This document shows positions 8,437 through 28,477 of a stretch of 32,768 bases of DNA, in pieces. The stretch covers positions 1-32,768 of the forward strand of contig JAFZSO010000060.1 in NCBI GenBank assembly GCA_017619355.1, in the 5' to 3' direction. Made by a program: the position numbers and the translations under genes. Origin of the DNA: Muribaculaceae bacterium. GTDB lineage: Bacteria > Bacteroidota > Bacteroidia > Bacteroidales > Muribaculaceae. The notes beneath the pieces are model-generated. The model saw only the letters and a list, made by a program, of their open reading frames with translations. It had not been told where the DNA came from and ran no database searches. How positions within the stretch are numbered: the first letter of the stretch is position 1; each line of letters opens with the position of its first letter.

Positions 8437-8444
8437 TACTTTTG
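8437..8444 (+). promoter_or_regulatory. Promoter -7 box of the M6 peptidase gene
   Basis: TACTTTTG fits TAnnTTTG; no TTTG is seen at the expected -33 position. The start near 8451 gives a 75-nt, A-rich leader. Confidence 0.5.
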
Positions 8445-8525
8445 CCATGCTAATGACAACTTAACACTGGCACATGACCGATGACAGTAAAGTTTTGAAA
8501 AAACAATTATCTAACAATTAACAAA

Positions 8526-11096
8526 ATGCTTAAAAAACTATTCTTTCTCCTTGTGTGTTGCAGTTTAGGCATTCAAGCCTTTGGCGTGCCTGCTTATCCC
8601 GAACCATTCACCTTCACCCAACCCGATGGAACCACCATCATGCTCAATGCTGTGGGTGATGAGTTCCAGAATGGCCTGACGACCAGCGACGGACTCACCG
8701 TCATGATTGGTGCCGATGGCTACATCTACTATCGCACTACCGCTGGCATAAGCCAAGTAACGGCACACGATGCAGCCGACCGCAACGCTGCCGAAACGGC
8801 TTTTATCGACACCAACCGTGAGCAACTGAATTTCGCCGCACAAATCACGCCTCAGGCACGAGAGCGCCGCGCTTCGGCCATGAGAGGGCCCAACCGTGTG
8901 GGAAACACCGAAGTGCCCACTATCGGCAGTCCGCGTGTGCCCATCCTCCTCGTTGAATACCAAGACAAGAGCATGAGCAACTCCAAGGAGAAGATTTCGG
9001 ACCACTACAAGACCGATGCCAAGAGCGTTTACCAGTATTTTGTCGACCAGTCGAGCGGCCAGTACACGCCCCAATTCGATGTCTATGGCATCTACACCCT
9101 CGACAGTGTCCGTGAGGAATATGGCGGCAATGTTTACGACGAGTACGGAAACCGCAACGACAAGGGCCTGGGCCGCATGGTGGAGCAAGCCATCCTGAAG
9201 GCAGGCGATGAAATTGATTGGAGCAAGTATGACAACGACGGCGACGGTGAAGCCGATGTGTGCATCGTGGTCTATGCAGGTGTGGGCGAAGCCCAGGCAT
9301 CATCGACGGTGCCCGAATCGATCTGGCCGTGCCAGTGGTATCTTTCGTCGGCCGCCTATTATGGTTATGGCGACATTGGCGCCATGGAACGTAACGGTGT
9401 TATCATTAACCGTTTTGGTGTGTTCAACGAAGTGAATGGTAGCAACGATTACGGCACCACACTCGACGGCATAGGCACCTTCTGCCACGAGTTCTCGCAC
9501 TGCCTGGGTCTGCCCGACTTCTACGACACCAACTACGGCGGACATTACGGCATGGGACATTGGAGCCTCATGTGCAGCGGCTGCTACAATGGTGTGCAAA
9601 TCAGTGGTGACACTCCTGTGGGCTACAGCGCTTATGAGAAGAACTTCATGGGCTGGCTCGATTTTACCGAGGCCGTTCCAAACACCCACTACACCTTGCC
9701 CGCACCTAATAGCGGAAACGATGTGGCAGTGCGCATCAAGGCGCTGAACAACAATGAGTATTTCATTCTCGAAAACCGCCGCAAGCAGGGCTGGGACCAG
9801 TGCATTGCCAATGGTGGTGTGCTTATCACCCATTTCACCTATATCCCTGAGCGATGGTACTACAACACGCCCAACAACGAGGACATTCAGCTCGCCACCA
9901 TCATCCCCGCAGACAACAGTCTTAACTCCTATAGCGAGAGCGGAGACCCCTACGGCAATTCCAACTACGAGTTTACAGCCACCTCAACACCTGCCATGAT
10001 GGCCAACATGGACTCCAAGGGCAACCTCGCCAGCACCACCGGAGGACACGGCACCATCGACAAACCTGTGACCGAAATCACCACCAAGAGCGATGGCACT
10101 GCCTCATTCTGGTATATGAAAACGCCCTTTGATATCTACACGCCAGTCATGCAGCCTACCGACACCACACTCGTCGACCTCACTAGCTTCACCGCACAAT
10201 GGACCGACGAGACCAAAGAACAGTATGTCAAGTCTTACACCCTGTGGGTATGCATGGACGGTTTGTCTACCGATCCCATAATGCTCGATGAGGCCGACTT
10301 CAGCAACTTGGAAACATTAGCGAGTGGTGGCTACCTGACCAATGTGTCGTCATACTATGACCAATATCTGCCCGAAGGCTGGAGCTGCGGTTCCTCCCTC
10401 TATGTCTACAATGGGTCCATCTTGATAGGCGACCAGATAAGCACCAAACTCTATGATATGCCTATGGGCTATGACAAGATTTCGGTCGTGATCAATGCCT
10501 GCTCGTTCTATGAGAGCGCTTATGGAACAGCCTTTGTGGACATCACCACCTCAGGAAGCAACGCCAGCAACGGCATCAACCTGGTTGGCGACACTCCCAC
10601 CGAACACATCTGTGTGATGGATGCAGCAGAGCAAGAGTCCATCAGCTTCTACGGTAGCAGTTACCCCATGATCAACAACATCAAGATTTATGCAGGCGAC
10701 ATCACCGAGCAAACCAAGGCTCCGTTGCTCCTTGCCATTGAAGTTGGCGACAGCACTAAGCGCACCATCACCGGCATCACCGAGAAACTCTATGAGGTAA
10801 GCAATCTTGCCGCCGGCGGTACCTTTAACTACAAGGTCAAGTCCATTTATATCGACGATAGCGAGAGCCCCTGGTCGAACATCGAACAAGTGACCCTTAG
10901 CGCAAAGGGGAAACCCGGCGACGCCAATGGCGACGGCAACGTGGATGTGAACGACGTGACCACAGTCATCAACTACATCTTGGGCAAGAATCCCAGCCCC
11001 TTTAACTATGACAATGCCAATGTGAACGGCGACACGAAGGTGGATGTAATGGATGTGACGCTCATTATCAACATCATTCTGGGACTCACCGACTGA
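8526..11096 (+). CDS. Secreted M6-family metallopeptidase with dockerin-like C-terminus
   Basis: An 856-residue exported zinc peptidase. A signal peptide (about 1-19) is followed by an M6 propeptide (FTFTQPDGT near 29-37) and the catalytic domain (about 135-400). The zinc motif is HEFSHCLGLPD, with zinc-binding H321 and H325 and catalytic E322. A YDNDGDGEADV segment (235-245) looks calcium-binding. After it come an FN3-like first half (about 535-577), an inserted beta-sandwich (about 578-740), the FN3 second half (about 745-792, ending PWSNIEQVTLS) and a 59-residue dockerin-like module (798-856) with two EF-hand-type loops, DANGDGNVDVND and NVNGDTKVDVMD; the second loop lacks the usual Gly at position 6. 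It opens the peptidase/adhesin cluster and shares its tail design with the C10 enzymes downstream. Likely surface or extracellular protein degradation. Confidence 0.92.
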   Translation: MLKKLFFLLVCCSLGIQAFGVPAYPEPFTFTQPDGTTIMLNAVGDEFQNGLTTSDGLTVMIGADGYIYYRTTAGISQVTAHDAADRNAAETAFIDTNREQLNFAAQITPQARERRASAMRGPNRVGNTEVPTIGSPRVPILLVEYQDKSMSNSKEKISDHYKTDAKSVYQYFVDQSSGQYTPQFDVYGIYTLDSVREEYGGNVYDEYGNRNDKGLGRMVEQAILKAGDEIDWSKYDNDGDGEADVCIVVYAGVGEAQASSTVPESIWPCQWYLSSAAYYGYGDIGAMERNGVIINRFGVFNEVNGSNDYGTTLDGIGTFCHEFSHCLGLPDFYDTNYGGHYGMGHWSLMCSGCYNGVQISGDTPVGYSAYEKNFMGWLDFTEAVPNTHYTLPAPNSGNDVAVRIKALNNNEYFILENRRKQGWDQCIANGGVLITHFTYIPERWYYNTPNNEDIQLATIIPADNSLNSYSESGDPYGNSNYEFTATSTPAMMANMDSKGNLASTTGGHGTIDKPVTEITTKSDGTASFWYMKTPFDIYTPVMQPTDTTLVDLTSFTAQWTDETKEQYVKSYTLWVCMDGLSTDPIMLDEADFSNLETLASGGYLTNVSSYYDQYLPEGWSCGSSLYVYNGSILIGDQISTKLYDMPMGYDKISVVINACSFYESAYGTAFVDITTSGSNASNGINLVGDTPTEHICVMDAAEQESISFYGSSYPMINNIKIYAGDITEQTKAPLLLAIEVGDSTKRTITGITEKLYEVSNLAAGGTFNYKVKSIYIDDSESPWSNIEQVTLSAKGKPGDANGDGNVDVNDVTTVINYILGKNPSPFNYDNANVNGDTKVDVMDVTLIINIILGLTD

Positions 11097-11121
11097 CGCA
11101 ATCGGTCACGCTAACGCGGCA

Positions 11122-11155
11122 AAGCCATCACTCAGCTTGGGTGGTGGCTTTTTTT
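11122..11155 (+). terminator. Rho-independent terminator of the M6 gene
   Basis: A 10-bp stem AAGCCATCAC/GTGGTGGCTT (11122-11131 with 11141-11150), 9-nt loop, then a seven-T run. The stem sequence resembles that of the A2 terminator at 17867. Confidence 0.85.
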
Positions 11156-11214
11156 GTGCTCAAAAAACGGGAATTCGCTGAAAACACACATTGTTTATAC
11201 ATTTTTCTTGACTT

Positions 11215-11249
11215 TTTGCGGCAATTCAAGAAAAAAATGATTACTTTTG
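11215..11249 (+). promoter_or_regulatory. Promoter of C10 peptidase A1
   Basis: TTTG at 11215-11218 and TACTTTTG at 11242-11249, 23 bp apart (the long end of the usual range). The start near 11256 is followed by a short AT-rich leader that resembles those of A2 and A3. Confidence 0.65.
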
Positions 11250-11297
11250 CGGTTCTGAATCACAATTTGACAGAAACTATTTTTATTTAATATCATT

Positions 11298-14200
11298 ATG
11301 CTCAAAAAAACACTTCTTTTAGTTGTTGCTTTGGCAGCAGCAGTAAATGCATGGGCTGCGCCCGTCGATGTTGCTACCGCCAAAGCCACCGCACAGCAAT
11401 ATCTTGTCAACAAGGTATATGCCGGCAAGTACATGGCTCCCGCAGCCACTGAACCCGTGCTCATCATGACCGAGATGGGCAAAGTGAACAAGGAAACACC
11501 CGTTTTCTACATCTTCAACACCGAGACCACCTACCTCATCGTAGCTGGTGACGACCGTGCCGAGGAAGTGCTCGCCTATGGCGACAAGCCACTGAATCTC
11601 GACCGCATCCCCGATGGACTCAAGGACATTCTCGCTTGCTATCAGGAAGAACTCGACTGGCTCATTTCTAACCCCGATGTGAAAGTAGAGAAACCCGCAG
11701 GCAATCAACTGCGCGCCACAGGGACCTATGGCCCGCTGCTCACAGCAAATTGGGACCAGACTGCCCCTTACTGGAATCAGTGCAAATTCACTTATAATGG
11801 AACCAGCTACCAGTGCTATACTGGTTGTCCTGCCACATCGGCCTCCATGGTGCTCTACTTCTGGAAATACCCCACTGCTCAAGTAAATGCAATTCCGTCA
11901 TATACAGCCGAGCTTGACCTCTCTTATTACAATTCGGTGAGCAACTACACCTATCCTGCCCTGTCAGCAACCACCTTCGACTGGGCTAACATGAAGGACA
12001 GCTACAGCAGCTACAACACCGCCCAGGGCACCGCAGTAGCCACCCTGATGCGCTATGTGGGCCAGGCCGAGCACATGATGTATGGTACCGAGAGCGCTGG
12101 TGGTAGCGGCATCTACACTACCGACACACAGAACATCGTGGACATGTTCACCCTGTTCGGCTACGATTCAAGCACTTGCCGCGTTGCGAACAAGAGCAGT
12201 TATTCATCTGACAATTGGGCCGCCCTCATCCAGAATGAAGTAGCAGAAGGTCGCCCCATGGTTTACACTGCAGTGAGTTCCAACGGTGGAGGTCACGCCT
12301 TTAATGTGGATGGCTACAACTCCTCGACCAACAAGTATCACGTGAACTTTGGCTGGAGTGGCGACGGCAACAACTGGTATTCGATGAACTCGTTCAGCTA
12401 CAGCGGCTACACCTTCAACCAGGGCCAGCAGGCTGTGATTGGCATCAAGCCCCCAGCATCATATTTTGGTCCCAGCATCACAGCATCTCAGTCGGCACTC
12501 AATATGACGGCTAACGTGGGCGGGACTGCTACCGCAACCTTCACTGTGACAGGCGCAAGCCTTACTGGCAACGTGAACGTGAGTGTGAGTGGCACAGGCT
12601 TCAGCGTGAGCCCCACCACCATCAGCACTACCGATGCCACTAATGGCAAGACCGTGACCGTGACCTACGCCCCCACTACGGCAGGCACCCACAATGGTAC
12701 CATCACACTGAGCAGCACTGGCGCCGACAACGTGACCGTAGCGCTGACTGGTACAGCAAAATATGCGCTCGACGCTCCTACGCTGGACAATGCCAGCAAC
12801 ATCGATGAAACATCGTTCACCGCTTCGTGGACCCACGAGGCTCCCGTCGATGTAACCTACACTCTCTCGCTGGTGCGCAACGGTTCTAATGTTTCGGGAT
12901 ATCCCAAGACGGGCATCACCACCAAGAGCTTTGATGTGACTGGCCTGGAAAGTGGCAACACTTATCAATTCAAGGTGAAAGCTGTTCCCGTGAACACCAA
13001 CCTCGCCACTGAGAGTGCGTGGTCGACCACCAAGAGCGTGAAACTCAGTGCATCGACTACTCCCAAGATTACAGCCACACCCACCGAAATCACCTTTGGC
13101 AACGTGCAGGCTGGCCAGACCACGACCCAGACCTTCAATGTAACGGGTGCCAACCTCACTGGCAACATCACCGCCACACTCACCGACCAGGATGGTGTGT
13201 ACAGCCTCGACGCAACCACAATCACCACCGCACAGGCCTCCACAGGCAAGACCATCACGGTTACCTTCGCCCCCAACGGCCGGAAGCAATTCAACGGCAC
13301 CATTACCCTCAAATCACAGGGTGCAGCCGATGTTACCATCGCCCTCACAGGTAATGGCACCTTCATCGATCCCGTGATGCTCCCTGCCGATGAAAGCCAT
13401 ATTGACATCAATAAATTCCGTGCCGACTGGACCGACGAGACTCCCGCTGCCAACGTGGCAAGCTACACCCTCGTGGTGAACTATGTGGCTCCCGAACCTG
13501 AGGTGCAACTGCTCCACTCACTTCTCGGAACAGACTTCACAGGTAGCGCCACTGGTTATTACGAGATCACCTTGCCTGCTCCCTGGGGCGGAACCAATGT
13601 GCGTGGCGGTCTGAACTCAATCATCTATTTCAGGAACAATTATAACAATGATGGTTCTTATGGAAACATCACCTACACCATTCCTGAAGGTTATCAGAAC
13701 AAGACCTTCACGATGAAGATCACTACCGCCAACACAAACGACGGCTCGGGCAATCTCACAGTTGCCACACCACAGACCAGTGCTGTAGGACACAACTTCA
13801 GCAAAAACGAGACCTTTGCTTGGGTAGTAACAGCAAGCTCTGGCGAAAAAATCACAATCACTACGACTGACAACCAATACTCGCCCGATATCGCCAAGAT
13901 TGAGGTCTATAGCGGCGACGCAACCGGCGCCAAGGCTAACGAGAGCGGCGACACCGAGACTCGCACCGTGACCGGCATCACTGCCAAGAACTACACAGTG
14001 ACCGACTTGGTTGAAGGAGGAACCTTCCTCTACAAGGTGAAAGCCGTTTATACCGATGGCACCGAGAGCGAGTGGTCGAACGAAGAAGAGGTCACCCTGA
14101 TCGAGAACCAGAATCCGGGCATGGCTGGTGACGCTAATGGCGACGGCACCGTGGACGTGAACGACGTGACCACAGTGATCAGCTACATCCTGGGCAAGAA

Positions 14201-14303
14201 CCCGAATCCGTTCAACTACGACAACGCCAACGTGAACGGCGATGAAGAAGTGAACGTGAACGACGTGACTCTCATCATCAGCATCATTCTGGGCACCAAC
14301 TGA
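11298..14303 (+). CDS. C10-family cysteine peptidase A1 with dockerin-like C-terminus
   Basis: A 1001-residue secreted peptidase of the streptopain/interpain family. Order: signal peptide (1-20); Spi-like propeptide (about 22-110, with VFYIFNTETTYLIVAGDDRAEEVLAYGDK region); mature catalytic domain (about 143-385) with nucleophile C177 in YTGCPATSASM and H333 in GGGHAFNVDGY, followed by NFGWSGDGNNWY; Ig-like repeat (393-487); FN3 (491-584); second Ig-like repeat (588-687); FN3 first half (690-728), inserted beta-sandwich (about 735-885), FN3 second half (about 893-936); dockerin-like module (944-1001) with DANGDGTVDVND and NVNGDEEVNVND loops. The family cleaves proteins broadly; the propeptide keeps the enzyme latent. 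No separate Spi-type inhibitor gene is beside it. Its catalytic half is close to that of A2, but its tail differs. Confidence 0.93.
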   Translation: MLKKTLLLVVALAAAVNAWAAPVDVATAKATAQQYLVNKVYAGKYMAPAATEPVLIMTEMGKVNKETPVFYIFNTETTYLIVAGDDRAEEVLAYGDKPLNLDRIPDGLKDILACYQEELDWLISNPDVKVEKPAGNQLRATGTYGPLLTANWDQTAPYWNQCKFTYNGTSYQCYTGCPATSASMVLYFWKYPTAQVNAIPSYTAELDLSYYNSVSNYTYPALSATTFDWANMKDSYSSYNTAQGTAVATLMRYVGQAEHMMYGTESAGGSGIYTTDTQNIVDMFTLFGYDSSTCRVANKSSYSSDNWAALIQNEVAEGRPMVYTAVSSNGGGHAFNVDGYNSSTNKYHVNFGWSGDGNNWYSMNSFSYSGYTFNQGQQAVIGIKPPASYFGPSITASQSALNMTANVGGTATATFTVTGASLTGNVNVSVSGTGFSVSPTTISTTDATNGKTVTVTYAPTTAGTHNGTITLSSTGADNVTVALTGTAKYALDAPTLDNASNIDETSFTASWTHEAPVDVTYTLSLVRNGSNVSGYPKTGITTKSFDVTGLESGNTYQFKVKAVPVNTNLATESAWSTTKSVKLSASTTPKITATPTEITFGNVQAGQTTTQTFNVTGANLTGNITATLTDQDGVYSLDATTITTAQASTGKTITVTFAPNGRKQFNGTITLKSQGAADVTIALTGNGTFIDPVMLPADESHIDINKFRADWTDETPAANVASYTLVVNYVAPEPEVQLLHSLLGTDFTGSATGYYEITLPAPWGGTNVRGGLNSIIYFRNNYNNDGSYGNITYTIPEGYQNKTFTMKITTANTNDGSGNLTVATPQTSAVGHNFSKNETFAWVVTASSGEKITITTTDNQYSPDIAKIEVYSGDATGAKANESGDTETRTVTGITAKNYTVTDLVEGGTFLYKVKAVYTDGTESEWSNEEEVTLIENQNPGMAGDANGDGTVDVNDVTTVISYILGKNPNPFNYDNANVNGDEEVNVNDVTLIISIILGTN

Positions 14304-14352
14304 TTGATTCCGAGAATTTAGGAAATCTAACCATTAGTGACCCAAACCATAT

Positions 14353-14393
14353 CAACAAGCCCTGGCGCACACCTGCGTCGGGGCTTGCTGTTG
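14353..14393 (+). terminator. Hairpin after A1, weak terminator
   Basis: CAACAAGCCC (14353-14362) pairs with the GGGCTTG..TGTTG arm (14381-14393) with a short bulge. No strong T tract follows, so termination efficiency is doubtful, but the position suits the end of A1 and its core resembles the A3 terminator. Confidence 0.5.
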
Positions 14394-14481
14394 ATTTAGG
14401 GTGCCTTATACAAAATGATAGCAATTAATTCTTTTTTTGATTTTTTTTCAAGTTTTCAATAAAAATTGCTTGAAAAATGTC

Positions 14482-14489
14482 TACATTTG
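14482..14489 (+). promoter_or_regulatory. Promoter -7 box of C10 peptidase A2
   Basis: TACATTTG fits TAnnTTTG; the -33 position lacks TTTG. The expected start near 14496 begins a leader of about 48 nt that contains AATCACAATTTGACA, also found in the A1 leader. Confidence 0.5.
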
Positions 14490-14543: not shown

Positions 14544-17500
14544 ATGTTCAAAAAAGCTTTACTATCCCTTGTGGCTTTAGCAGCTGCACTGCAAGTGTGG
14601 GCGGCGCCTGTCGATGTGTCGACAGCTAAGACTAAGGCCGAACAGTACCTTACCAACAGGGTTTATGCCGGCAAGTACATGGCTCCCGCAGCCACTCAAG
14701 CCACCCTGATTAAAACAGAGATGGGCGACAATGCTCAAACTCCAGTGTTCTACATCTTCAACACGGCCTCTACATTTGTGATCGTATCAGGTGATGACCG
14801 TGCCGAAGAGATTCTCGCTTATGGCGACAAGCCCCTGAATCTTGACCGTATTCCCAAGAACATGGAGGCATGGCTCAACATCTACAAAGAGCAACTCGAC
14901 TGGCTGCTCACCCACCCTGATGTGAAGGTCGAGAAACCTGTTTCGATTAAATCGCCAAAACTCAGGGCCACAGTAACCGGCCCGCTGTTGACTGCCATCT
15001 GGGATCAGGAAGCCCCCTTCAACAACCAGTGCCATTTCACTTACAGTGGCACCTCCTATTCCTGCTACACCGGCTGTCCCGCAACATCGGCATCAATGGT
15101 GCTCTACTATTGGAAATACCCCACTGAACCGGTTGGTCCTCTGGCTTCTTATGCTGGCACACTCGAACTCAGTTACTGGAACAGCGTGAACTTCACCTAT
15201 CCGGCACTGCCACAGACCACCTTCGACTGGGACAACATGATCGACGATTATACCGGCAGCTATACCACCGCTCAGGGCAACGCCGTTGCCACACTGATGC
15301 GCTATGTGGGCCAGGCCGAGAAGATGATGTATGGCACCGCAAGTGCTGGCGGTAGCGGTATCTACACCACCGATGCACAGAATATCGCCGACATGTTCAT
15401 TGCTTTCGGCTACGACGAGGCTACTACCCGTCTGGCCTTGAAATCGAACTACACCGAGGCCTCTTGGGCACAACTTCTCCAGGAAGAGCTTGCTGAGAGC
15501 CGTCCCGTGGTGTTCATGGCTGTGGACGCTGGCGGTGGCGGTGGCCACGCGTTCAATGTCGACGGCTACAACTCAAGCACCAACAAGTATCACGTGAACT
15601 TTGGCTGGAGTGGCGACGGCAACAACTGGTACTCCATGAACGCTTTCTCCTACAGCGGCTACACATTCAGCAGCAACCAGATGATGACCGTAGGTATCCA
15701 GCCCCCCATGGGCGCCATCAAAGCCACTCCTTCAGAAGTGAATTTCCAGGGCTTTGCCGGCGAGACCTACACCCAGACCGTGAAGGTCCAGGCCCGCAAC
15801 CTTGAAAGCGACATCACCATCGAGAAGGTGGGTCCTGACAACATCACCGTGAGCCACACCACCATTACCGCCGCCGAGGCCGCCAATGGTGTCAATGTGG
15901 TTGTCACCTATGCTCCCACCGAAGCAGGAACCACCAATGCTGCCCTGAATCTCTCTTGTGCCGACGAGGATGTTGAGAGCGTGAGCGTGCCCATCACCGC
16001 TGTGGCACAGCCCCGCGTTCCCACACTCATTGTCGAGCCCACGAGCCTCAACTTCAGTTCAACGCTCGACAACACGGTGACAAAGACCTTCACCATCACC
16101 GGAGCGTTCCTGACCCACGATGTCACCCTCACCCTGAACGATACCAAGGGCGTGTTCACCGTCAGTCCTACTACCATTTCGCAAAGCAGCACCGATGTCA
16201 ACACACCTGTTACCGTTGCCGTGTCGTTTAATTCGGCCGAAGAAGGCAGCTTCAACGGTTCCATCACCATTGCCAGCGAAGATGCTGAGAGCAAGACTGT
16301 GAACCTCATAGCCATCGCTCGTGATGGTGGCACCGCTGCCGACCCCTTCCTCAACATCGCCAACTATGAGACCATCGACGAGGCTGGAGCCACCGTTACC
16401 GGCATGAACACCATCTATAAATACACCGAGTATGAAGATCAAGAGTGCGCATGGCTCACGGTTTCCAACTATGGTGCCTTGAAGGCCGATGATACTCAGA
16501 ACTGGATCACCAGCTCATCACTCTCAACCTACAGCAACAGCTGGTCGGCTTCTGATGTGTTCCCGGGCCAGAACGCCTACTTTGGCAGCAGCCAGGCTTA
16601 TTCAGTGTATGGCAGCAACTATCAGTCGTTCTATGTCACCAACTGCACACAGGTCAAGGCCTATGTGAAGGGCAGCAGCTACAGCAGCTCATCGGCATCT
16701 CTGGCAATCTATGAGTGCACGCTCAATGCCAATGGAGGGGTCACGCCCTCTACCTCAGCTGTCGAAATCAAGCAAGTGAGCAACGGTGTTGCAACCTCAT
16801 CTGAACTTGATGCCTCCAAGATTTACTTGGTGAAACTGACTGGCGGTGGCTCTTATCCCGATCTCCTGGAGATTGGTTTCCAGACTCCGCTCAGCACCAT
16901 CGAGGTTCCTGTGGCACTTCCCGCAACCGAAGTTGCAGCCAATGGCTTTACCGCCAGCTGGACCATTTGTCCAAGCGCCACAAGCTACACGCTGCGTGTC
17001 AAACCCAAACCTGCAGCCACGCTGCTCATGACTGAGACATTCGAGAAATGCGTCAGCGCTGGCGGACAAGACATCGGCGGCAGCCTCAACAACTATCTCG
17101 ACAATCCCGGCTGGACTGGCAGCAAGGTCTATACTGCCGTGGGTGGCCTCCGTTTGGGCACAGCCAGTGGTTTAGGCACTCTCACGAGTCCCGCTCTCGA
17201 CCTGTCGGCCGACAACAAGGTGAGTATCAGAATGAAGGCTCAGACCCTGAACAACGACACTGACTGCGGCCTGAAGGTTTCCTGTGGCAACGCAAGCGAG
17301 ACCATCACAGTGCCCAATAACGAATTGGGTGAATACACGATCGTACTCGACTGCACCGCTGCCGACCAGAAGGTGACATTCCAAACCACTACCAATAGCA
17401 AGCGCGTGATCATCACCGATGTCGAACTCTACTCGGGCGATGTCACCAAGACCACTCCCTCCAAGGGCTTCGACGAGACCATCATCACCAATATCACCGA

Positions 17501-20227: not shown

Positions 20228-22189
20228 ATGAAAAAACTCTATTCACTTATTCTCATGGCCGCGCTGGCACTGCCCGCCTTGGCCAATGTAACCGCCCTGA
20301 AAGGCCAGCAGGCTCCTGCCAATGTTGACCGCGATGAGGTTGTGACAGACTTCACTTCCCTGAAGCCATTCACCGGCATCATCCAAGCTCCGAAATTGAA
20401 TCGCGAGGATGCTGTAATCTATCAATGCGGTTTCGAGACCGATGCCGAACTCGCACAATGGCAAATTATCGATGCCGATGGCGACGGCAAGAACTGGGTA
20501 CAGGAAAGCACTACCTACGCTCACAGTGGTGATTATGCCCTTATTTCGTACAGCTATCAAGGTGGAGCTCTGACTCCTGACAACTGGGCCATCTCGCCCA
20601 ACCTGCCCCTTGGCGGCACATTAACGATTTGGGCCGAGAACTACAGTGGTTACTATCCCGACACATTTGCCGTGTATGTGTGCGTGGGTGATCCTTCAAA
20701 CCTCGACAACTTCGTGAAGGTTTCTAACGACATCACTCCTCCTGCTTCCTGGACCCAGTATGACATTGACCTGGGCGCATATTCTGGCAAAGAGGGTGTC
20801 TTCGCCCTTCGTCACTACAACAGCACCGATCAGTTCAAGATCTTGATCGACGACATTTCACTCACTGCTCCCAAGGCTGCTATGCCTCAGAATGTAACCG
20901 TTGTTCCCGCTGCCACCTCAGCCGATGTGACTTGGGAAAACGAAGGCAACGTAGCATGGAATCTGCGCTACCGTCAAGTGAATCTTAAGCCCGAAACATT
21001 CTGGGACTTTGAAGATGGAGCTCTCGCTCCTTGGACCACCGTTGACAATGACGGCGACGGCTACACTTGGGGCATCTGGGATCCCATTTCACTTGGTTAT
21101 CAACCTAGCGAGGATGGCATGATCGGCAACATGTGCGTAACCTCGGCAAGCTACGCAGGTGGTTCAGCTCTCACCCCCGACAACTGGCTCATTTCGCCCA
21201 AGGTAACCATCAATGGTCCTCTCTCGTTCTGGGCTGCAGGTCAAGACCCTGATTATGCTGAAGAAGTGTTTGCTGTGTATGTGCTGGTTGGCGATGACGC
21301 CGATCCCACCAATGTGAACAGCTTCGTGAAGATTTCAGAGGACATTACTGCTGAAAGCCCCATCAAGCAATACACATTCGACCTGGCCGACTATCAGGGC
21401 CAAGAAGGTTATGTGGCCATCCGTCACTACAGTGTTACCGACATGTTCCGCCTGAACATCGACGACATCATGATTGGCGAGTGGGCTGGCGAAACCGAGT
21501 GGATTTATGTGAACGACATCAACGAGATGAACTACACCATCGAGGGCCTCACTCCCGAAACCACCTATGAAGTTCAGGTTCAGGGTAATGACGGAGAAGA
21601 AAGCAAGGGCTTGAGCAGCTGGACCGAGTCGGTTGAATTCACCACCCTCGCAGCTCCTGAAGAAGCCAAGTTCTATGTAGTGGGCGGCTTCAACGGCTGG
21701 AATGCCGATACTCCTCTCGAAATCACCGAGAATGGCGCAACCTTCGATGTGGTTGAAGATCCCGAAGATGTGGAAAGCAAGGAATTCAAGATTCTCACCG
21801 CTGGTGAGAACGACTGGCTGTGGCTCGGTGGCGAAGACGCTAATGGCGTTGGCTACTTCGAAGTGACCGACGGCATGATGACCGACGGAACCGAGATCAC
21901 TCTCGACGACGCTGGTGCTAACTTCCGCCTGCCCGGCTCTGGCAACTACACCATCACCCTCGTCAAGGATGAAGAGGAGTCTAAGGCTCCCTACGAAGGT
22001 GTGGCGATCGTTGTGAAGCAGAACAACCTCACTCCCACCGCTGTTACCGACGTGAACAGCAAGACCGTTGCCGGTGTGAAGTATGTGAACATCGCCGGTA
22101 TGGAGAGCAATGTGCCCTTCGACGGTGTGAACATCGTGGTTACCACTTACACCGATGGCACCAAGGCTGCCGCTAAAGTTATCAAATAA
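20228..22189 (+). CDS. Adhesin-like protein B2: two cleaved-adhesin domains, FN3, E-set, C-terminal sorting tail
   Basis: A 653-residue secreted protein. Signal peptide (1-19, ALPALA); first cleaved-adhesin/choice-of-anchor J domain (about 64-215: DADGDGKNW, GGALTPDNWAISP, LRHYNSTDQFKILIDDI); FN3 first half (220-250, AWNLRYRQ); second cleaved-adhesin domain (258-416: DNDGDGYTWG, SALTPDNWLISP, IRHYSVTDMFRLNIDDI); FN3 second half (about 424-474); E-set domain (about 481-597, FYVVGGFNGWNA); C-terminal tail (about 602-653) ending AAAKVIK. It has a second adhesin domain in place of the DUF2436 of B1 and B3. Its last roughly 180 residues are almost identical to those of B3. The adhesin domains suggest surface binding; the ligand is unknown. 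Confidence 0.86.
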   Translation: MKKLYSLILMAALALPALANVTALKGQQAPANVDRDEVVTDFTSLKPFTGIIQAPKLNREDAVIYQCGFETDAELAQWQIIDADGDGKNWVQESTTYAHSGDYALISYSYQGGALTPDNWAISPNLPLGGTLTIWAENYSGYYPDTFAVYVCVGDPSNLDNFVKVSNDITPPASWTQYDIDLGAYSGKEGVFALRHYNSTDQFKILIDDISLTAPKAAMPQNVTVVPAATSADVTWENEGNVAWNLRYRQVNLKPETFWDFEDGALAPWTTVDNDGDGYTWGIWDPISLGYQPSEDGMIGNMCVTSASYAGGSALTPDNWLISPKVTINGPLSFWAAGQDPDYAEEVFAVYVLVGDDADPTNVNSFVKISEDITAESPIKQYTFDLADYQGQEGYVAIRHYSVTDMFRLNIDDIMIGEWAGETEWIYVNDINEMNYTIEGLTPETTYEVQVQGNDGEESKGLSSWTESVEFTTLAAPEEAKFYVVGGFNGWNADTPLEITENGATFDVVEDPEDVESKEFKILTAGENDWLWLGGEDANGVGYFEVTDGMMTDGTEITLDDAGANFRLPGSGNYTITLVKDEEESKAPYEGVAIVVKQNNLTPTAVTDVNSKTVAGVKYVNIAGMESNVPFDGVNIVVTTYTDGTKAAAKVIK

Positions 22190-22416: not shown

Positions 22417-25400
22417 ATGTTCAAAAAATCACTACTTCTCATTGTAGCCTTAGCGGCTACACTGCAAGTGTCGGCAGCCGACGTCAACTTGGCTACCGCA
22501 CAGAATGTGGCACGGTCATTTTTGACAAGGCAGGTGGCAAACGGTCACCTCAAAGCCACCGCAATCAACAACCTCACGCTCGTGAAGGCCGAGGCATCGG
22601 TAGCGAAACCCGAAGCGGTTGACTACTACATCTTCAACTCCGACAAATCCTATGTCGTTATTGCAGGTGACGACCTTGCCCCTGAAATCCTCATGTACGG
22701 TGTGGAAGGAACTATCGACCTCAACAACATCCCCCCTGCCATGCAGTGGATGCTCAACAAATACAAATATCAGATCGACGGCATCAAGGCCGGCACGCTT
22801 AAAGCCACGGGCTTTTCTCCCAAGGCAACAACTCCGGTTGCTCCACTGGTGACTGCCAACTGGGACCAGAGCGCCCCTTACAACAACCAGTGCCCCACAA
22901 GTGGCGGCTCTCGTGCTGTAACAGGTTGCCCTGCCACCTCGCTGGCCATGTGCTACTACAAGTGGAAATGGCCCACGACATTCCCTGCTTGTGACGCAAT
23001 CAATGGCAGTGTTACTGAAGGATATTCAGCTCCCGCTCTCCCGGAACGCGAGGCCGATTGGGACAACATTATCGATGAGTACACTGGTCCCACCAACTAC
23101 AATTCAAACGCAGAACAGAAAGACGCTGTAGCATGGCTCATGCGCTATGCAGGTCAGTCTATCCCCGATTACTATTACAGTTCAAGCGCCAGCGGTGCCA
23201 ACGACCCCGAAATCTATCAAGGCGTCCTCAATATGGGCTATACCGATGCCCAATATCTCTTGCTCACCGAATTAATAGGGTCGGGATGGAGTTATACCAA
23301 TGGCCCGCAGCAGTACACTGATGCTGAATGGAACGAATTCATGCTTAATGAGCTGTACCATGGCCGCCCCATCGAGTATCTCGCCTATGACTGCAGCGGT
23401 TGGCAGCCTGCAGGTCATGCCTTCAATGTGTTCGGTTGCGACAGCAACGGAAAGTACTACGTGAACTGGGGCTGGAGTGGCGACAGCAATGGCTACTGCA
23501 CCCTGCACAACTTCACCACCGCCACCGGCTCTACAGGCCAGTCGGGTTCTTACGTGTTCAACTATGGCGAGGCCATGATCATTGGCATTGAGCCTCCTGG
23601 CGGCATCAAAGTGAACCCGACAGAGCTTGAGTATGATGGTTATGTGGGCGAGACCTACACGAAGACCATTACCGTGATGGGCAGAAGCCTGGAAAGCGAT
23701 ATTTCTCTCACTTTGAGCGGTGACGCCGCTTACAGCATCAGTCACACCACCATCACTTCAGCACAGGCTGCTGATGGTGTTGATGTGACCATTACATACG
23801 CTCCAACTGCTGCTGGCAACCACAATGCCACCATCACCCTCAGTTGTGACAGCGAAGAGGAAGAGGATGTTGTTGTGACCATCACTGGCGTGGCTCATCC
23901 ACGCGTTCCAACTCTCGTTGTCGAGCCCGCGAACCTCGAGTTCAGTGCAGCACTCGGCAAAACCGTGACCAAGACCTTCACCCTCACCGGACCGTTCCTG
24001 ACTCACGATGTTACCCTCACCCTGAACGATACCAAGGGCGTGTTCACCGTCAGTCCTACCACCATTTCGCAAAGCAGCACCGATGTCAACACACCTGTTA
24101 CCGTTGTCGTGTCGTTTAATTCGGCCGAAGAAGGCAGCTTCAACGGCTCCATCACCATTGCCAGCGAAGGCGCCGAGAGCAAGACGGTGAACCTCACAGC
24201 CATCGCTCGTGATGGCGGCGCTGCTACCGACCCCTTCCTCAACATCGCTTATTACGAGACAATCGACGAGGCTGGAGCTAATGTGAGCGGAATGAACACC
24301 ATCTATAAATACACCGAGTATGAAGATCAAGAGTGCGCATGGCTCACAGTCTCCAACTATGGCGCCCTGAAGGCCGATGATACTCAGAACTGGATCACCA
24401 GCTCATCGCTTTCAACCTACAATAACAGCTGGTCGGCTACTGATGTGTTCCCGGGCCAGAACGCCTACTTTGGCAGCAGTCAGGCTTATTCAGTGTATGG
24501 AAACAATTATCAGTCGTTCTATGTCACCAACTGCACACAGGTCAAGGCCTATGTGAAAGGCGGCAGCTACAGCAGTTCGTCGGCAACACTGGCAATCTAT
24601 GAGTGCACGCTCAATGCCAACGGAAGCATCACACCTTCAAGCACAGCAGTCGACACCAAGCAAGTGAGCAGCGGTGTTGCAACTTCAGCTGAACTTGATG
24701 CCTCCAAGATCTACATGGTGAAACTGACTGGCGGCGGCTCTTATCCCGACCTTCTGGAGATTGGCTTCCAGACTCCGCTCAGCACCATCGAGGTTCCTGT
24801 GGCACTTCCCGCAACCGAAGTTGCAGCCAATGGCTTTACCGCCAGCTGGACTATTTGTCCAAGCGCCACAAGCTACACGCTGCGTGTCGTTCCCAAGCCT
24901 GCAGCCACCCTGCTCATGACTGAGACATTCGAGAAATGCGTCAGCGCTGGCGGACAAGACATCGGCGGCAGCCTCAACAACTATCTCGACAATCCCGGCT
25001 GGACTGGCAGCAAGGTCTATACTGCCGTGGGTGGCGTCCGTTTGGGCACAGCCAGTGGTGTAGGCACCCTCACGAGTCCCGCTCTCGACCTGTCGGCCGA
25101 CAACAAGGTGAGCATCAGAATGAAAGCTCAGACCTTGAACAACGACACCGACTGCGGCCTGAAGGTTTCCTGTGGCGAAGCAAGCGAGACCATCACCGTG
25201 CCCAATAACGAAACGGGTGAATACACCATCGTGCTCGACTGCACAGCCGCCAACCAGAAGGTGACATTTGAAACCACTACCAATAGCAAGCGCGTGATCA
25301 TCACTGATGTCGAGCTCTACTCGGGCGATGTCACCAAGACCACGGCCAAGGGCTTCGACGAGACCATCTTCACCAATATCACCGACCTTAATTACAAGGT

Positions 25401-25689
25401 CACCGGCCTGCAGCCTGGCACCACATATCTCTACGATGTGAAAGCCGTGAACGCCGACTCGCAGAGCAAGTGGTCGAACAAGATCGAGGTTGTCACCTTG
25501 AGCGGCACTCCTGGCGATGCCAATGGCGACGGCGCCGTGGATGTGAACGACGTGACCGCAGTGATCAGCTACATCCTGGGCAAGAACCCCGAACCGTTCA
25601 ACATCGGCAACGCCGACTTGAACGGCGATGGAGAAGTGAACGTGAACGACGTGACCCTCATCATCGGCATTATTCTGGCTGGCAAGTAA
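22417..25689 (+). CDS. C10-family cysteine peptidase A3 with dockerin-like C-terminus
   Basis: A 1090-residue secreted C10 peptidase. Signal peptide (1-20); Spi-like propeptide (about 22-125, YYIFNSDKSYVVIAGDD); catalytic domain (about 140-395) with C171 in AVTGCPATSLAM and H334 in PAGHAFNVFG, followed by NWGWSGDSNGY; Ig-like repeat (about 400-490); second Ig-like repeat (about 495-595); unknown Ser/Tyr-rich domain (about 600-787); split FN3 with inserted beta-sandwich; dockerin-like module (1033-1090) with DANGDGAVDVND and DLNGDGEVNVND loops. The propeptide and catalytic domain differ strongly from A1 and A2, which suggests a different substrate range or processing, while the last 570 or so residues are almost identical to A2. 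It has its own promoter box and a strong terminator. Confidence 0.93.
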   Translation: MFKKSLLLIVALAATLQVSAADVNLATAQNVARSFLTRQVANGHLKATAINNLTLVKAEASVAKPEAVDYYIFNSDKSYVVIAGDDLAPEILMYGVEGTIDLNNIPPAMQWMLNKYKYQIDGIKAGTLKATGFSPKATTPVAPLVTANWDQSAPYNNQCPTSGGSRAVTGCPATSLAMCYYKWKWPTTFPACDAINGSVTEGYSAPALPEREADWDNIIDEYTGPTNYNSNAEQKDAVAWLMRYAGQSIPDYYYSSSASGANDPEIYQGVLNMGYTDAQYLLLTELIGSGWSYTNGPQQYTDAEWNEFMLNELYHGRPIEYLAYDCSGWQPAGHAFNVFGCDSNGKYYVNWGWSGDSNGYCTLHNFTTATGSTGQSGSYVFNYGEAMIIGIEPPGGIKVNPTELEYDGYVGETYTKTITVMGRSLESDISLTLSGDAAYSISHTTITSAQAADGVDVTITYAPTAAGNHNATITLSCDSEEEEDVVVTITGVAHPRVPTLVVEPANLEFSAALGKTVTKTFTLTGPFLTHDVTLTLNDTKGVFTVSPTTISQSSTDVNTPVTVVVSFNSAEEGSFNGSITIASEGAESKTVNLTAIARDGGAATDPFLNIAYYETIDEAGANVSGMNTIYKYTEYEDQECAWLTVSNYGALKADDTQNWITSSSLSTYNNSWSATDVFPGQNAYFGSSQAYSVYGNNYQSFYVTNCTQVKAYVKGGSYSSSSATLAIYECTLNANGSITPSSTAVDTKQVSSGVATSAELDASKIYMVKLTGGGSYPDLLEIGFQTPLSTIEVPVALPATEVAANGFTASWTICPSATSYTLRVVPKPAATLLMTETFEKCVSAGGQDIGGSLNNYLDNPGWTGSKVYTAVGGVRLGTASGVGTLTSPALDLSADNKVSIRMKAQTLNNDTDCGLKVSCGEASETITVPNNETGEYTIVLDCTAANQKVTFETTTNSKRVIITDVELYSGDVTKTTAKGFDETIFTNITDLNYKVTGLQPGTTYLYDVKAVNADSQSKWSNKIEVVTLSGTPGDANGDGAVDVNDVTAVISYILGKNPEPFNIGNADLNGDGEVNVNDVTLIIGIILAGK
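23968..25689 (+). repeat. 1.7-kb near-identical segment, copy 2 (A3 tail)
   Basis: Partner of 16080-17804. The match begins inside the second Ig-like repeat and runs to the stop codon; the sequence after the stop is not shared, and the two genes have different terminators. Confidence 0.9.
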
Positions 25690-25720
25690 TCACAACAGGA
25701 ATTCATTCCCTGACCCTCTC

Positions 25721-25759
25721 ACAAGCCCTGAGCCTCTGAACGCTCAGGGCTTGTTTTTT
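25721..25759 (+). terminator. Rho-independent terminator of A3
   Basis: A perfect 13-bp stem ACAAGCCCTGAGC/GCTCAGGGCTTGT (25721-25733 with 25742-25754), 8-nt loop, six-T run. Confidence 0.92.
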
Positions 25760-25849
25760 ACCCACCCCTGCGGCGGTTCAGTTCTCAAAGCCGCCACCCT
25801 ACAAGAATTAATAGAATCAATATTTTTGTCGAATAAACACTTTAATCAT

Positions 25850-25881
25850 CTTGCTTTTTTCACAAAAATTAAGTACTTTTG
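25850..25881 (+). promoter_or_regulatory. Promoter of adhesin-like gene B3
   Basis: CTTG at 25850-25853 (one mismatch to TTTG), 20 bp, then TACTTTTG at 25874-25881. A second TAnnTTTG-like box, TATTTTTG, lies at 25821-25828. The start near 25888 gives a leader of about 38 nt. Confidence 0.65.
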
Positions 25882-25925
25882 TCATGTTTTTTAAACAAAT
25901 GTTTTACCATTAATAATTTTAATTT

Positions 25926-27863
25926 ATGAAGTTTAAATTTACCGCGCTGATGTTAGCTGTAGCACTCGCTATTCCTGGCATCGCTCAAGTGAAAGATGGA
26001 GCACAACTGTTCCGCACAAAAAAGAGTACAGTGGCCGTTAATCCCACTATCAGTACTCTTAAAGTTGTAAAAGTAACCTCTCAGCTCAGAGAAGACATTC
26101 CCGCCGACCAGGCACGCATCACATTCGTTGTTCTGGATTCGGAAGATGAGGGTGCAGGCGTATGGGGCGATGGCTCTGGCTACCAGATGCTCCTCGATGC
26201 CGATGCAAACGCTTATGGCAGCATCATTCCCGAAACCGGTGCTCTTACCACCGGTGGCGACGTCGATGCAGCTACCTATGCCGAGTTTGAGTACAAGATT
26301 CCTGAGGCTGCTGACGGAGCGTTGGCTACCACTAACATGATTGTTTCGGGCACTGAAACCGCTATGATTCCTGCTGGTGTTTATGACTGGTGCATCACTA
26401 ACCCCACTCCAGGCGATCGCATGTGGATTGCTTCGGATCAAGGTAGTGTTGGTGGCCGTGCCGATGACTTCGAGTTTATTGGTGGCTGTGGCTACACCTT
26501 CACCATTTCATTAAACGAAACAACTGGTAACGACCAGACCGACCTCGAAATCTTCGACCCCACTGCTCCTCAAGTTCCCACCGCACTCACTGTTAATCCT
26601 GCTGCCACCAAAGCCGATGCTGCTTGGACTGCTGGCGATAACAACAGCGCATGGAACCTGCGCTACAGGGAGTACACTGAAAATCCTGCCCAAACAATCA
26701 CTTGGGATTTCGAAAAGGATTCAGACTTTGAAGGCTGGACCATCTATGATGCTGACGGCGACGGATATAATTGGTGGGCTAACCAAGGTTCCTCCTATTA
26801 TGCTCATTCCGGAACTGGATCTCTCTATTCGGCAAGCTACTATTCTGGAAGCCTTACCCCCGACAACTGGCTGATTTCAGATACATATCCCATGAACGGA
26901 ACACTCACCTTCTGGGCAGGTCCATATTCATCATACTGGCCCGACAACTTCGGAGCATTTGTTATCCTGGGCGAGGATTTGACAACAGAAAGCTTCGCAA
27001 ATGCTGTTCAGGTTCTTGATGACCAAGCTCCCAGTGAATGGACCGAGTACACCATCGACCTCAGCCAATTTGAAGGCCAGAAGGGACACTTCGCCATCCG
27101 TCACTACAACTGCACCAACCAGTACTATCTGTGCGTTGACGACATCACTCTCAACATTCCTGGCGACCCACTCAAAGAATGGATTCCTGTTGAAAACATT
27201 GCTGAAGCTCAATATCAAATCACTGGCCTCACTCCCGAGACCACCTATGAGGTTCAAGTACAGGGCGTGAGTGAAGATGGACGCGTTAGTGACTGGACCG
27301 AGTCAACTCTCTTCACCACCCTTGCCGAAGAGCCTCAGGAAGAAGCCAAGTTCTACATTGTTGGTGGCTTCAACGGCTGGAATGCCGATCCTCCTCTCGA
27401 AATCACTGAAGAAGGTGCAACCTTCGATGTGGTTGAAGATCCCGAAGATGTGGAAAGCAAGGAATTCAAGATTCTCACCGCTGGCGAGAACGACTGGCTG
27501 TGGCTTGGTGGCGTTGACGAGAATGGCGTTGGCTACTTCGAAATCAGCGAAGGCATGATGACCTCAGGCACCGAGATCACGCTCGACGACGCTGGTGCTA
27601 ACTTCCGTCTGCCCGGTAGCGGTAACTACACCATCACCCTGGCTAAGGAAGAGAGCAAGGCTCCCGTAGAAGGCGTGAAGATCGTTGTGAAGCAGAACAA
27701 CCTCACTCCTACCGCTGTTACCGACGTGAACAGCAAGACTGTTGCCGGTGTGAAGTATGTGAACATCGCTGGCATGGAGAGCAATGTGCCCTTCGACGGT
27801 GTGAACATCGTGGTTACCACCTACACCGATGGCACCAAGGCTGCCGCTAAAGTTATCAAATAA
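25926..27863 (+). CDS. Adhesin-like protein B3: DUF2436, cleaved-adhesin, FN3, E-set, C-terminal sorting tail
   Basis: A 645-residue secreted protein. Signal peptide (1-20); DUF2436-type domain (about 64-210: VWGDGSGYQMLLDADANAYG, YDWCITNPTPGDRMWIAS); FN3 first half (about 217-250, AWNLRYREY); cleaved-adhesin domain (about 258-410: DADGDGYNWW, LTPDNWLISD, IRHYNCTNQYYLCVDDI); FN3 second half (about 417-465); E-set domain (about 474-590, FYIVGGFNGWNA); tail ending AAAKVIK. The first half follows B1 and the last 180 residues are nearly identical to B2, so the gene is a hybrid of the two neighbours' types. No catalytic domain is present. A surface adhesin or binding role is inferred from the gingipain-type modules. 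Confidence 0.86.
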   Translation: MKFKFTALMLAVALAIPGIAQVKDGAQLFRTKKSTVAVNPTISTLKVVKVTSQLREDIPADQARITFVVLDSEDEGAGVWGDGSGYQMLLDADANAYGSIIPETGALTTGGDVDAATYAEFEYKIPEAADGALATTNMIVSGTETAMIPAGVYDWCITNPTPGDRMWIASDQGSVGGRADDFEFIGGCGYTFTISLNETTGNDQTDLEIFDPTAPQVPTALTVNPAATKADAAWTAGDNNSAWNLRYREYTENPAQTITWDFEKDSDFEGWTIYDADGDGYNWWANQGSSYYAHSGTGSLYSASYYSGSLTPDNWLISDTYPMNGTLTFWAGPYSSYWPDNFGAFVILGEDLTTESFANAVQVLDDQAPSEWTEYTIDLSQFEGQKGHFAIRHYNCTNQYYLCVDDITLNIPGDPLKEWIPVENIAEAQYQITGLTPETTYEVQVQGVSEDGRVSDWTESTLFTTLAEEPQEEAKFYIVGGFNGWNADPPLEITEEGATFDVVEDPEDVESKEFKILTAGENDWLWLGGVDENGVGYFEISEGMMTSGTEITLDDAGANFRLPGSGNYTITLAKEESKAPVEGVKIVVKQNNLTPTAVTDVNSKTVAGVKYVNIAGMESNVPFDGVNIVVTTYTDGTKAAAKVIK

Positions 27864-27883
27864 GAATTCACTTATTGAATAAC
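27341..27883 (+). repeat. 0.55-kb near-identical segment, copy 2 (B3 tail)
   Basis: Partner of 21661-22209. Identity continues past the stop codon for about 20 bp; after a short diverged spacer the terminator hairpin is again shared. Confidence 0.9.
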
Positions 27884-27896
27884 TGATAACCCTAAC

Positions 27897-27932
27897 AACT
27901 CTCGCCTCACCACTGGGGCGAGAGTTTTTTTT
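27897..27932 (+). terminator. Rho-independent terminator of B3
   Basis: A perfect 10-bp stem AACTCTCGCC/GGCGAGAGTT (27897-27906 with 27917-27926), 10-nt loop, eight-T run. Confidence 0.92.
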
Positions 27933-27937
27933 GCCCC

Positions 27938-27968
27938 AACCCGAGTTAAACCAAATTTTAATCGGGTT
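27938..27968. repeat. Short inverted repeat between B3 and the sorting-domain gene
   Basis: AACCCGA (27938-27944) pairs with TCGGGTT (27962-27968) across 17 nt. It could be an operator or a minor hairpin; nothing in the sequence decides. Confidence 0.3.
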
Positions 27969-28072
27969 AAACCCTGGGCTGTTATTCGAGTCAAAAGGGG
28001 TGAAAGAGGCTTGGAAACGCAATTCTTTCAAAAAAATTGTGCCCAAAGTGGTTTTTTTTCAAAAAAAAGATG

Positions 28073-28080
28073 TAATTTTG
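28073..28080 (+). promoter_or_regulatory. Candidate promoter -7 box of the sorting-domain gene
   Basis: TAATTTTG fits TAnnTTTG but lies only 9 bp before the ATG at 28090, and no TTTG stands at -33. If used, the mRNA would be almost leaderless. Confidence 0.4.
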
Positions 28081-28089
28081 CCTGTTGAA

Positions 28090-28401
28090 ATGAAGAAGAT
28101 TGTGTACATATCGCTCATCTGCGCATCGCTGGCAGCCGTAAATGCCTGGGCAACACCCTGGCCTGCAGGCAATCAGCGCATCGAGAATGTGCAAGCCACT
28201 GCCTCGGTACGAGGTGGCGACGGCCGCATCGTTCTCACGGCAGGGAGCGAGGACGCCGTCTTCCAAATCTACTCCATCACAGGTCAGATGGTGAAGCAGG
28301 TGAAGGTGAACGCCGAGTCGCATGTCTCGGTCGAGATGCCCAAGGGCTTCTACATCGTGAAATTTAACAACCAGTGGTCGAGAAAAGTGGTGGTTAACTG
28401 A
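28090..28401 (+). CDS. Small secreted protein consisting mostly of a T9SS type-A sorting domain
   Basis: A 103-residue protein: signal peptide (about 1-21, ending AVNAWA), a 20-residue linker, then a segment (about 44-103) that reads as a complete T9SS type-A C-terminal domain: GRIVLTAG, FQIYSITGQMVKQVKV, VEMPKGFYIVKFNNQWSRKVVVN. Such domains normally follow a large cargo and direct it through the type IX secretion pore for surface attachment. Here no cargo domain is present. The gene follows the adhesin/peptidase cluster on the same strand. It may be a remnant of a larger cargo gene or a functional mini-protein. The start at 28090 gives a proper signal peptide; an upstream in-frame extension from 27931 would spoil it. 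Confidence 0.75.
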   Translation: MKKIVYISLICASLAAVNAWATPWPAGNQRIENVQATASVRGGDGRIVLTAGSEDAVFQIYSITGQMVKQVKVNAESHVSVEMPKGFYIVKFNNQWSRKVVVN

Positions 28402-28435
28402 TCCCGGGCTCCGGAATCTGTTGTCACCTGAAACG

Positions 28436-28477
28436 CTATCATTACCTGTGCCATGAGCTTGGAATGATAGTTTTTTT
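28436..28477 (+). terminator. Rho-independent terminator of the sorting-domain gene
   Basis: An 8-bp stem CTATCATT/AATGATAG (28436-28443 with 28463-28470), 19-nt loop, seven-T run. Confidence 0.75.

Follow-up and report, generated by a model that had tools for sequence, protein, structure and literature searches.

The locus described here is a run of eight same-strand genes for secreted proteins, peptidases and adhesins among them, in a stretch of 32,768 nucleotides from a Muribaculaceae bacterium (GenBank assembly GCA_017619355.1, contig JAFZSO010000060.1, positions 1 to 32,768; the whole stretch is referred to as the window). The window is contig C4 of an assembly of 2.63 Mb in 74 contigs that is 89% complete. 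The genes lie between a left flank reaching to 8318 and a cardiolipin synthase gene beginning at 28518, in the order M6 peptidase, C10 peptidase, C10 peptidase, adhesin, adhesin, C10 peptidase, adhesin, mini-protein; the signal peptides of all eight were read by eye. Neither RNA genes nor tRNA were found as marks of insertion. The adhesins and the mini-protein end in tails of the kind used by the type IX secretion system (T9SS), the peptidases in dockerins. The features are:

4602..8318, +, left flank, kept in the related genome G167: genes for a sugar nucleotidyltransferase-like protein, two L,D-transpeptidase-like proteins, an SH3-like protein and a small outer-membrane-type protein (names from our own reading of the translations)
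8437..8444, +, TACTTTTG, box 5' of the M6 gene (TAnnTTTG pattern)
8526..11096, +, P0001, M6 peptidase with C-terminal dockerin (10914-11081)
11298..14303, +, P0002, C10 peptidase with I69 propeptide, fn3/Ig-like parts and C-terminal dockerin (14124-14288)
14544..17804, +, P0003, C10 peptidase with I69 propeptide and C-terminal dockerin (17628-17789)
18080 (likely start)..20020, +, P0004, adhesin 1: DUF2436, cleaved adhesin, fn3 and T9SS-type tail (19847-20017)
20228..22189, +, P0005, adhesin 2: two cleaved-adhesin domains and T9SS-type tail (about 22040-22186)
22417..25689, +, P0006, C10 peptidase with I69 propeptide and C-terminal dockerin (25510-25674)
25926..27863, +, P0007, adhesin 3: DUF2436, cleaved adhesin and T9SS-type tail (about 27714-27860)
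28090..28401 (ATG at 28090), +, mini-protein: signal peptide and T9SS type A sorting domain only
28518..29978, +, cardiolipin synthase, kept right flank, 90.5% identical to that of G167

An initial annotation of this DNA had recognised one M6 and three C10 peptidases, all ending in dockerins, and both the coordinates and the domains were confirmed. P0001 scores 73.5 bits with the M6 model of Pfam and 177 bits with TIGR03296, is also matched by Dockerin_1, and contains HEFSHCLGLPD, in which we take HEFSH to be the M6 zinc motif; by domain and motif it classes as an M6 peptidase. The C10 domains of P0002, P0003 and P0006 score 149, 152 and 125 bits and their Dockerin_1 matches 33-45 bits, and all three translations contain GCPATS and GHAFNV, presumably the motifs of the catalytic Cys and His. 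Having the catalytic domain, the I69 propeptide and both motifs, these three proteins are C10 peptidases as far as sequence features define that family. The assembly's only two DUF2436 matches are in P0004 (180 bits) and P0007 (161 bits), each with cleaved adhesin, as had been stated for all three adhesins; no DUF2436 domain was found in P0005, which has its two cleaved-adhesin domains only. Seven of the eight genes thus encode peptidases or adhesins as annotated. The eighth product, of about 103 residues, matches TIGR04183 with 31.5 bits (cut-off 23) and Pfam's model with 22.4 bits, below its cut-off of 27, and a relative occupies the same place, between the last adhesin and cardiolipin synthase, in G167 (L082 2287-2640). 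Peptidases and adhesins are encoded by separate genes in the window and are, as proposed, separate polypeptides.

Each gene had been credited with a promoter box of its own and usually with a terminator. A TAnnTTTG box, which we take to be the -7-type promoter box of Bacteroidota, stands in all eight upstream gaps (1.01 expected from base shuffles); the full two-box pattern TTTG-N17-23-TAnnTTTG precedes no more than two of these genes (at 11215 and 17998). The two-box pattern occurs four times in the window against 0.38 expected, and a sigma-70-type scan gave 20 promoters, not above chance (15.7, standard deviation 4.3, in shuffles). A plus-strand hairpin with a T-run lies behind six of the seven genes from M6 to P0007, with none listed behind P0005; the five top rows of the terminator scan are intergenic, and its 25 hairpins in all exceed the mean of shuffles (18.7, standard deviation 4.4) by no more than about 1.5 standard deviations. 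Of the 11 C10 genes in the assembly, three start within 11.1 kb here, and any such triple appeared in 0.8% of random placements.

The C-termini of the three adhesins of the window have in common a tail some 50 residues long, for which a profile of 25 sequences, three of them from the window, was built. Among the DUF2436 frames of congeners, 82 in number, 11 are cut; the other 71 have at their C-terminus the adhesin tail (22, two of which are fused to C10), a dockerin (19, four of which have residues behind it) or something else (30). This last group includes a few fragments and 23 frames with an end motif like that of canonical-looking sorting domains. Profile comparison of the adhesin tail with the 23 canonical-looking ends gave a probability of 92 (E 6e-7, 30 columns), and with the dockerin a probability of 0.1. 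By this homology the tail is probably a divergent T9SS type A sorting domain, and the adhesins should therefore be exported and anchored on their own. The observed ends further indicate that dockerin and T9SS-type tail replace each other on one adhesin core. The genome has the corresponding machinery, with SprA (2728 bits), two PorU sortases and nine TIGR04183 matches above cut-off.

Gingipain-type C25 peptidases are absent from the locus, and none was found in the 89% complete assembly. Its only two C25 frames score 894 and 716 bits as PorU sortases (cut-off 420) and were hence rejected as missing peptidase partners of the adhesins. The two PorU genes lie close together (L323 1814-7837 and 7887-16254), with two dockerin-ended proteins beside them.

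The dockerin, in turn, is a tag of the whole genome. With 150 of 255 candidates scored, Dockerin_1 matches number 140 across the 2.63 Mb of the assembly, and 29 of the 30 best-scoring dockerins end within 5 residues of the frame end. All 11 C10 frames of the assembly coincide, by contig and frame length, with Dockerin_1 frames. The 30 best-scoring dockerin proteins, most of them cut at the N-terminus by the stretch covered, match LRR_5 (12), DUF285 (4), CBM26 (3), C10 (2) and M6 (2), and no match to a glycoside hydrolase catalytic family was seen in this N-terminally cut sample. Dockerins are present in every one of the 101 genus genomes searched (up to 57 candidates scored per genome). At 29 congener loci with 30 C10 frames, a dockerin closes 15 frames, 14 are truncated at the limits of the stretch covered and one is the piece upstream of an in-frame stop. 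The dockerin was therefore rejected as a link specific to the locus, and carries no special information on it.

We propose that the locus is a surface-proteolysis cassette assembled from two kinds of exported parts, its dockerins tethering to cohesin proteins, and give this reading a probability of roughly 0.45. The three adhesins would be exported and anchored at the surface by their own divergent T9SS type A tails, and the four peptidases would be held at the cell surface by the type I dockerin acting as a general secretome tag. The dockerins would most likely dock to cohesin proteins with T9SS-type tails, an architecture present in congeners. Peptidases and adhesins would then meet through sharing one surface, not through binding of dockerin to adhesin, and in the C10 lineage of P0006 the pairing is so tight that relatives hold both on one polypeptide.

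Candidate receptors are found in the same genome. P0010 combines three cohesins (65.6 bits against a cut-off of 24.1) with a dockerin, and stands behind the subtilase-type P0011, which is cut at its N-terminus, has a dockerin match below cut-off and, by eye, a sorting-type end. On contig C67 the dockerin protein P0013, also with a sorting-type end by eye, is followed by P0012, in which a cohesin-like domain scores 22.5 bits in one search, below the Pfam cut-off, and is not seen in another. A cohesin profile found cohesins as the first 13 of 15 PDB matches (best E 0.0017). At 16 of 29 congener cohesin loci, one per genome, the order is dockerin, cohesin-type domain (own iterated profile) and tail (by eye), and in eight of these a second cohesin gene stands directly behind on the same strand. 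The adhesin-tail profile matches five of the 29 loci at E <=1.6e-17, and the Pfam cohesin scores of these frames in the genome search are 31.4 (L303), 28.6 (L311), 28.3 (L312), 27.4 (L316) and 26.3 bits (L318), all above cut-off, the Pfam cohesin being mostly the domain ahead of the dockerin. The tail shared by the adhesins therefore links them, in congeners, to candidate cohesin anchors.

Several observations weigh against the cassette as proposed. The adhesin tails lie below the curated TIGR04183 cut-off (17.7 bits for P0004). Only 46 of the 101 congeners show a Pfam cohesin match at E 1e-3 (37 above cut-off), and the other 55 genomes are without one, though all 101 have dockerins; among them is the single-contig genome G082, with 34 dockerin matches and no Pfam cohesin match, a good test case for the binding partner of dockerins. 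In the whole-protein scan two of the five tail-bearing cohesin frames fall short of the Pfam cut-off (L318 with 21.7 bits; L311 with no match), and the tail-bearing protein of L307 is likewise below it, while that of L292 reaches it (41 bits). In the own genome P0011 and P0013, which have the sorting-type ends, are without Pfam cohesin, the cohesin of P0013 being seen only by our iterated profile, and the dockerin of the scaffold-like P0010 looks by eye much like those of the enzymes. Nor is the tag universal on C10: the fused C10 proteins of L091 and L098 (see below) end in the adhesin tail, and the C10 frames of L100, L117 and L131 (records titled Prevotella, Bacteroidaceae and Bacteroidia) show no dockerin. 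Because 55 of the 101 genomes show no Pfam cohesin, a cohesin receptor is the best candidate only.

These same genomes lend weight to an unlikely alternative, namely that the dockerin is itself the signal for export or retention, or docks to a receptor other than a cohesin, and replaces the T9SS sorting domain. In its favour, dockerins and sorting tails alternate at the same place in DUF2436 proteins and at the site shared with G167, and rumen genomes that have dockerins but no cohesins have been noted, with Ruminococcus albus 8 as the precedent (PMC9763041). Clear multi-cohesin, scaffold-like proteins do exist, however, both in the genus, where the whole-protein scan gives L294 four cohesins (111.6 bits), and in the own genome, as P0010. 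In addition, the dockerin fold is not known to have a role in export.

The proposed cassette, with its parts meeting on a shared surface, also has to be set against direct binding, the arrangement implied by the initial annotation, in which the peptidases and adhesins of P0001-P0007 bind each other after export in one gingipain-like complex. Conserved linkage of C10 and DUF2436 genes had been named as support for this, and it was not seen in the genus. DUF2436 occurs in 51 of 101 genus genomes and in 10 of 79 sampled across the family, both counts including the own genome, and C10 in 99 of 101 genus genomes with 1 to 28 copies; the closest adhesin loci come from metagenome-assembled genomes titled Bacteroidales, Muribaculaceae, Prevotellaceae or Porphyromonadaceae, many from ruminant stomachs, which suggests that the bacterium itself is a rumen member of the Muribaculaceae. 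The 76 regions examined (1.19 Mb, many shortened by contig ends) cover 82 of 84 DUF2436 places outside the own genome, with G172:C105 and G154:C28 left out, and were compared with 40 control stretches (0.79 Mb) placed by hand on the same contigs. C10 is present in four of the regions, against 6.97 expected by density and four in the controls, which is not above background. M6 was found three times in regions and never in controls (p 0.28). With the DUF2436 frames themselves excluded from the counts, dockerin frames number 43 and 24 (p 0.53), and cleaved-adhesin frames 22 and 1 (p 1.6e-4). With 22 against 1 for cleaved adhesins and four against four for C10, the adhesin genes group with one another and not, in general, with C10.

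One C10 lineage behaves differently. In the congeners G151 and G161 (L091, L098) a single frame of 1224 or 1262 residues holds C10, DUF2436, cleaved adhesin and adhesin tail; over some 500 residues its C10 part shares 63-67% identity with P0006. A tree of 50 C10 domains unites P0006, the C10 of G167 and the two fused C10s in one clade (100/100) next to P0002/P0003, and all four members are either fused to a DUF2436 gene or within 2 genes of one. The sample for this tree is biased, its other members being the best Pfam scorers, those of the own genome or those from DUF2436 and control regions, and P0006-like C10s without DUF2436 may therefore exist. At L205 of G151, M6, the fusion of C10, DUF2436 and cleaved adhesin, and a second cleaved-adhesin gene are again together.

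The fusion in two congeners, the same site in G167 and the constant company of DUF2436 in the clade (4/4) speak for direct binding. We nevertheless regard direct binding as improbable. The C10-DUF2436 linkage is at genus background, the fusion probably arose once and was passed on to both species, the peptidase tag is genome-wide and not specific to the adhesins of the window, and the C10 sample of the tree is biased. The interpretation first given is supported in part, by the P0006 lineage and the shared site in G167; the dockerin is nothing special to the locus, and the linkage in the genus fails.

The counterpart in G167 bears on both the cassette and its remaining rival. Its left flank has the same five genes at 79-94% identity: nucleotidyltransferase-like (85%), two L,D-transpeptidase-like (94%, over 152 of 228 residues, and 82%), SH3-like (79%) and small outer-membrane-type (80%). 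There follow M6 (70%), C10, a dockerin protein without C10 or M6 match and, at the contig end, a DUF2436 adhesin (60% identical to P0004). The front of the C10 matches P0006 (73%) and the rear P0002 (66%). A second contig of G167 starts with DUF2436, cleaved adhesin and dockerin on one protein, continues with a mini sorting-domain protein and cardiolipin synthase, and has ispE and grpE (76% each) beyond. P0007 is 45% identical to its positional counterpart there, and at one and the same site the last adhesin therefore ends in a T9SS-type tail in the window and in a dockerin in G167.

Within the locus, comparison of the P0003 and P0006 genes over 22 segments of 150 bases gives 86-98% identity for the rear 11 and 50-74% for the front 11; for the P0005 and P0007 genes it gives 84-92% in the last three of 13 such segments and 35-68% before. 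With only the rear parts nearly identical, these pairs are the product of recent module copying within the locus, judged from the distribution of identity. That the locus is simply a duplication hot spot of surface-protein genes without joint function, its neighbours having arisen by local duplication and module copying, accords with this copying, with the composite C10 of G167 and with the low linkage in the genus, but is the least probable of the alternatives given that site and order (M6, C10, adhesin) are kept in G167, that M6, fusion and cleaved-adhesin gene stand together in G151 L205 and that two functions are fused into one polypeptide.

Read as a surface-proteolysis cassette, the locus can be compared with several known systems. 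Gingipains RgpA and Kgp and HagA of Porphyromonas gingivalis share with it the DUF2436 and cleaved-adhesin modules, the signal peptide and a T9SS-type tail, and the structure matches of P0007 are to the DUF2436 domain of PrtH (9isp, E 3e-35) and the adhesins of Kgp (3m1h, 4itc). The window peptidases differ in being C10 and M6, not C25, in being separate polypeptides and in ending in dockerins; a single precursor of peptidase and adhesin modules, as in gingipains, is absent from the window and occurs, with C10, in L091 and L098. The three adhesins are in this sense HagA-like, carrying DUF2436 and/or cleaved adhesins without a peptidase. According to PMC5266723, P. gingivalis has peptidase-free DUF2436/cleaved-adhesin proteins (HagA, PG0411), exchanges peptidase and adhesin modules combinatorially and, in strain W83, has an adhesin-free gingipain, PG0410, beside the peptidase-free adhesin protein PG0411. 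A split peptidase/adhesin pair is thus already known. There both partners have T9SS C-terminal domains (CTDs) and the peptidase is a gingipain, whereas here C10 and M6 have dockerins. The 'disassembled gingipain' of the initial annotation is therefore a loose name, with no C25 gingipain found and with peptidase-free adhesins and the split pair already published for P. gingivalis.

The C10 peptidases resemble PrtT and periodontain of P. gingivalis and interpain A of Prevotella intermedia in having a propeptide, and the best solved match of P0003 is interpain A (3bb7, E 1.5e-40). PrtT is described as a CTD-family protein (PMC5266723), where the window C10 proteins end in dockerins. T9SS and M6 and C10 peptidases have been reported from S24-7/Muribaculaceae, with a streptopain homologue among the T9SS-domain proteins and no mention of dockerins in the main text (PMC4936053). 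Among the publications covered, none was found that reports dockerins replacing sorting domains on all C10 of a genome, a C10-DUF2436 fusion or an exchange between dockerin and sorting tail.

Bacillota cellulosomes likewise have C-terminal type I dockerins and multi-cohesin proteins with a dockerin. Their cohesin-dockerin complexes use surface anchors usual in that phylum, not T9SS-type tails; the setting here is Gram-negative, with T9SS-type tails and no glycoside hydrolase catalytic family in the 30 dockerin proteins sampled, most of them cut at the N-terminus. Dockerin-bearing enzymes and a multi-cohesin protein (P0010) are present, but a cohesin match occurs in only 46 of 101 congeners. 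It is conceivable, though we hold it rather unlikely, that the genus as a whole runs such a surface, a Gram-negative, T9SS-anchored cohesin-dockerin system in which a few tailed cohesins would carry much of the secretome, every C10 of this genome included, by dockerins that have replaced the T9SS tail; it would be a protein-degrading analogue of the cellulosome, its adhesins using the same tails. Dockerins in Bacteroidetes bins (PMC6071333, PMC10266427) and a two-cohesin protein in one Prevotellaceae genome (PMC5830445) have been published. None of the titles listed deals with T9SS-anchored cohesins, and an earlier description is possible.

If the proposal is correct, T9SS cargo need not carry a sorting domain of its own, as a dockerin could stand in for it. 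Prediction of the Bacteroidota surface proteome would change accordingly, given nine sorting-domain matches above cut-off against 140 dockerin matches in this genome, and cohesin-dockerin assembly would operate in a Gram-negative setting at least partly for the breakdown of protein, not fibre. Even with a non-cohesin receptor, the exchange of dockerin and sorting tail on one adhesin core is a clue to the role of the abundant dockerins of Bacteroidota.

Some minor observations complete the picture. At about residues 470-577, ahead of the tail, the three adhesins have a conserved domain (VGGFNGWNAD...) that is SusE/F-like by eye only and has no match in Pfam. Residues 22-74 of P0007 gave a ubiquitin-chain match (E 5e-9) with no single stretch passing, probably an artefact of repeat summing. 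G155 has an unusually large C10 frame of 1571 residues (L359 2010-6722). Finally, DUF2436 with cleaved adhesin is also present in metagenome-assembled genomes titled Clostridia, Bacillota and the like (L107, L109-L111, L113, L114, L116, L118, L119, L121, L124-L127, L129), some of these proteins having dockerins and others a hydrophobic, anchor-like end, which suggests that such proteins have been exchanged between phyla.

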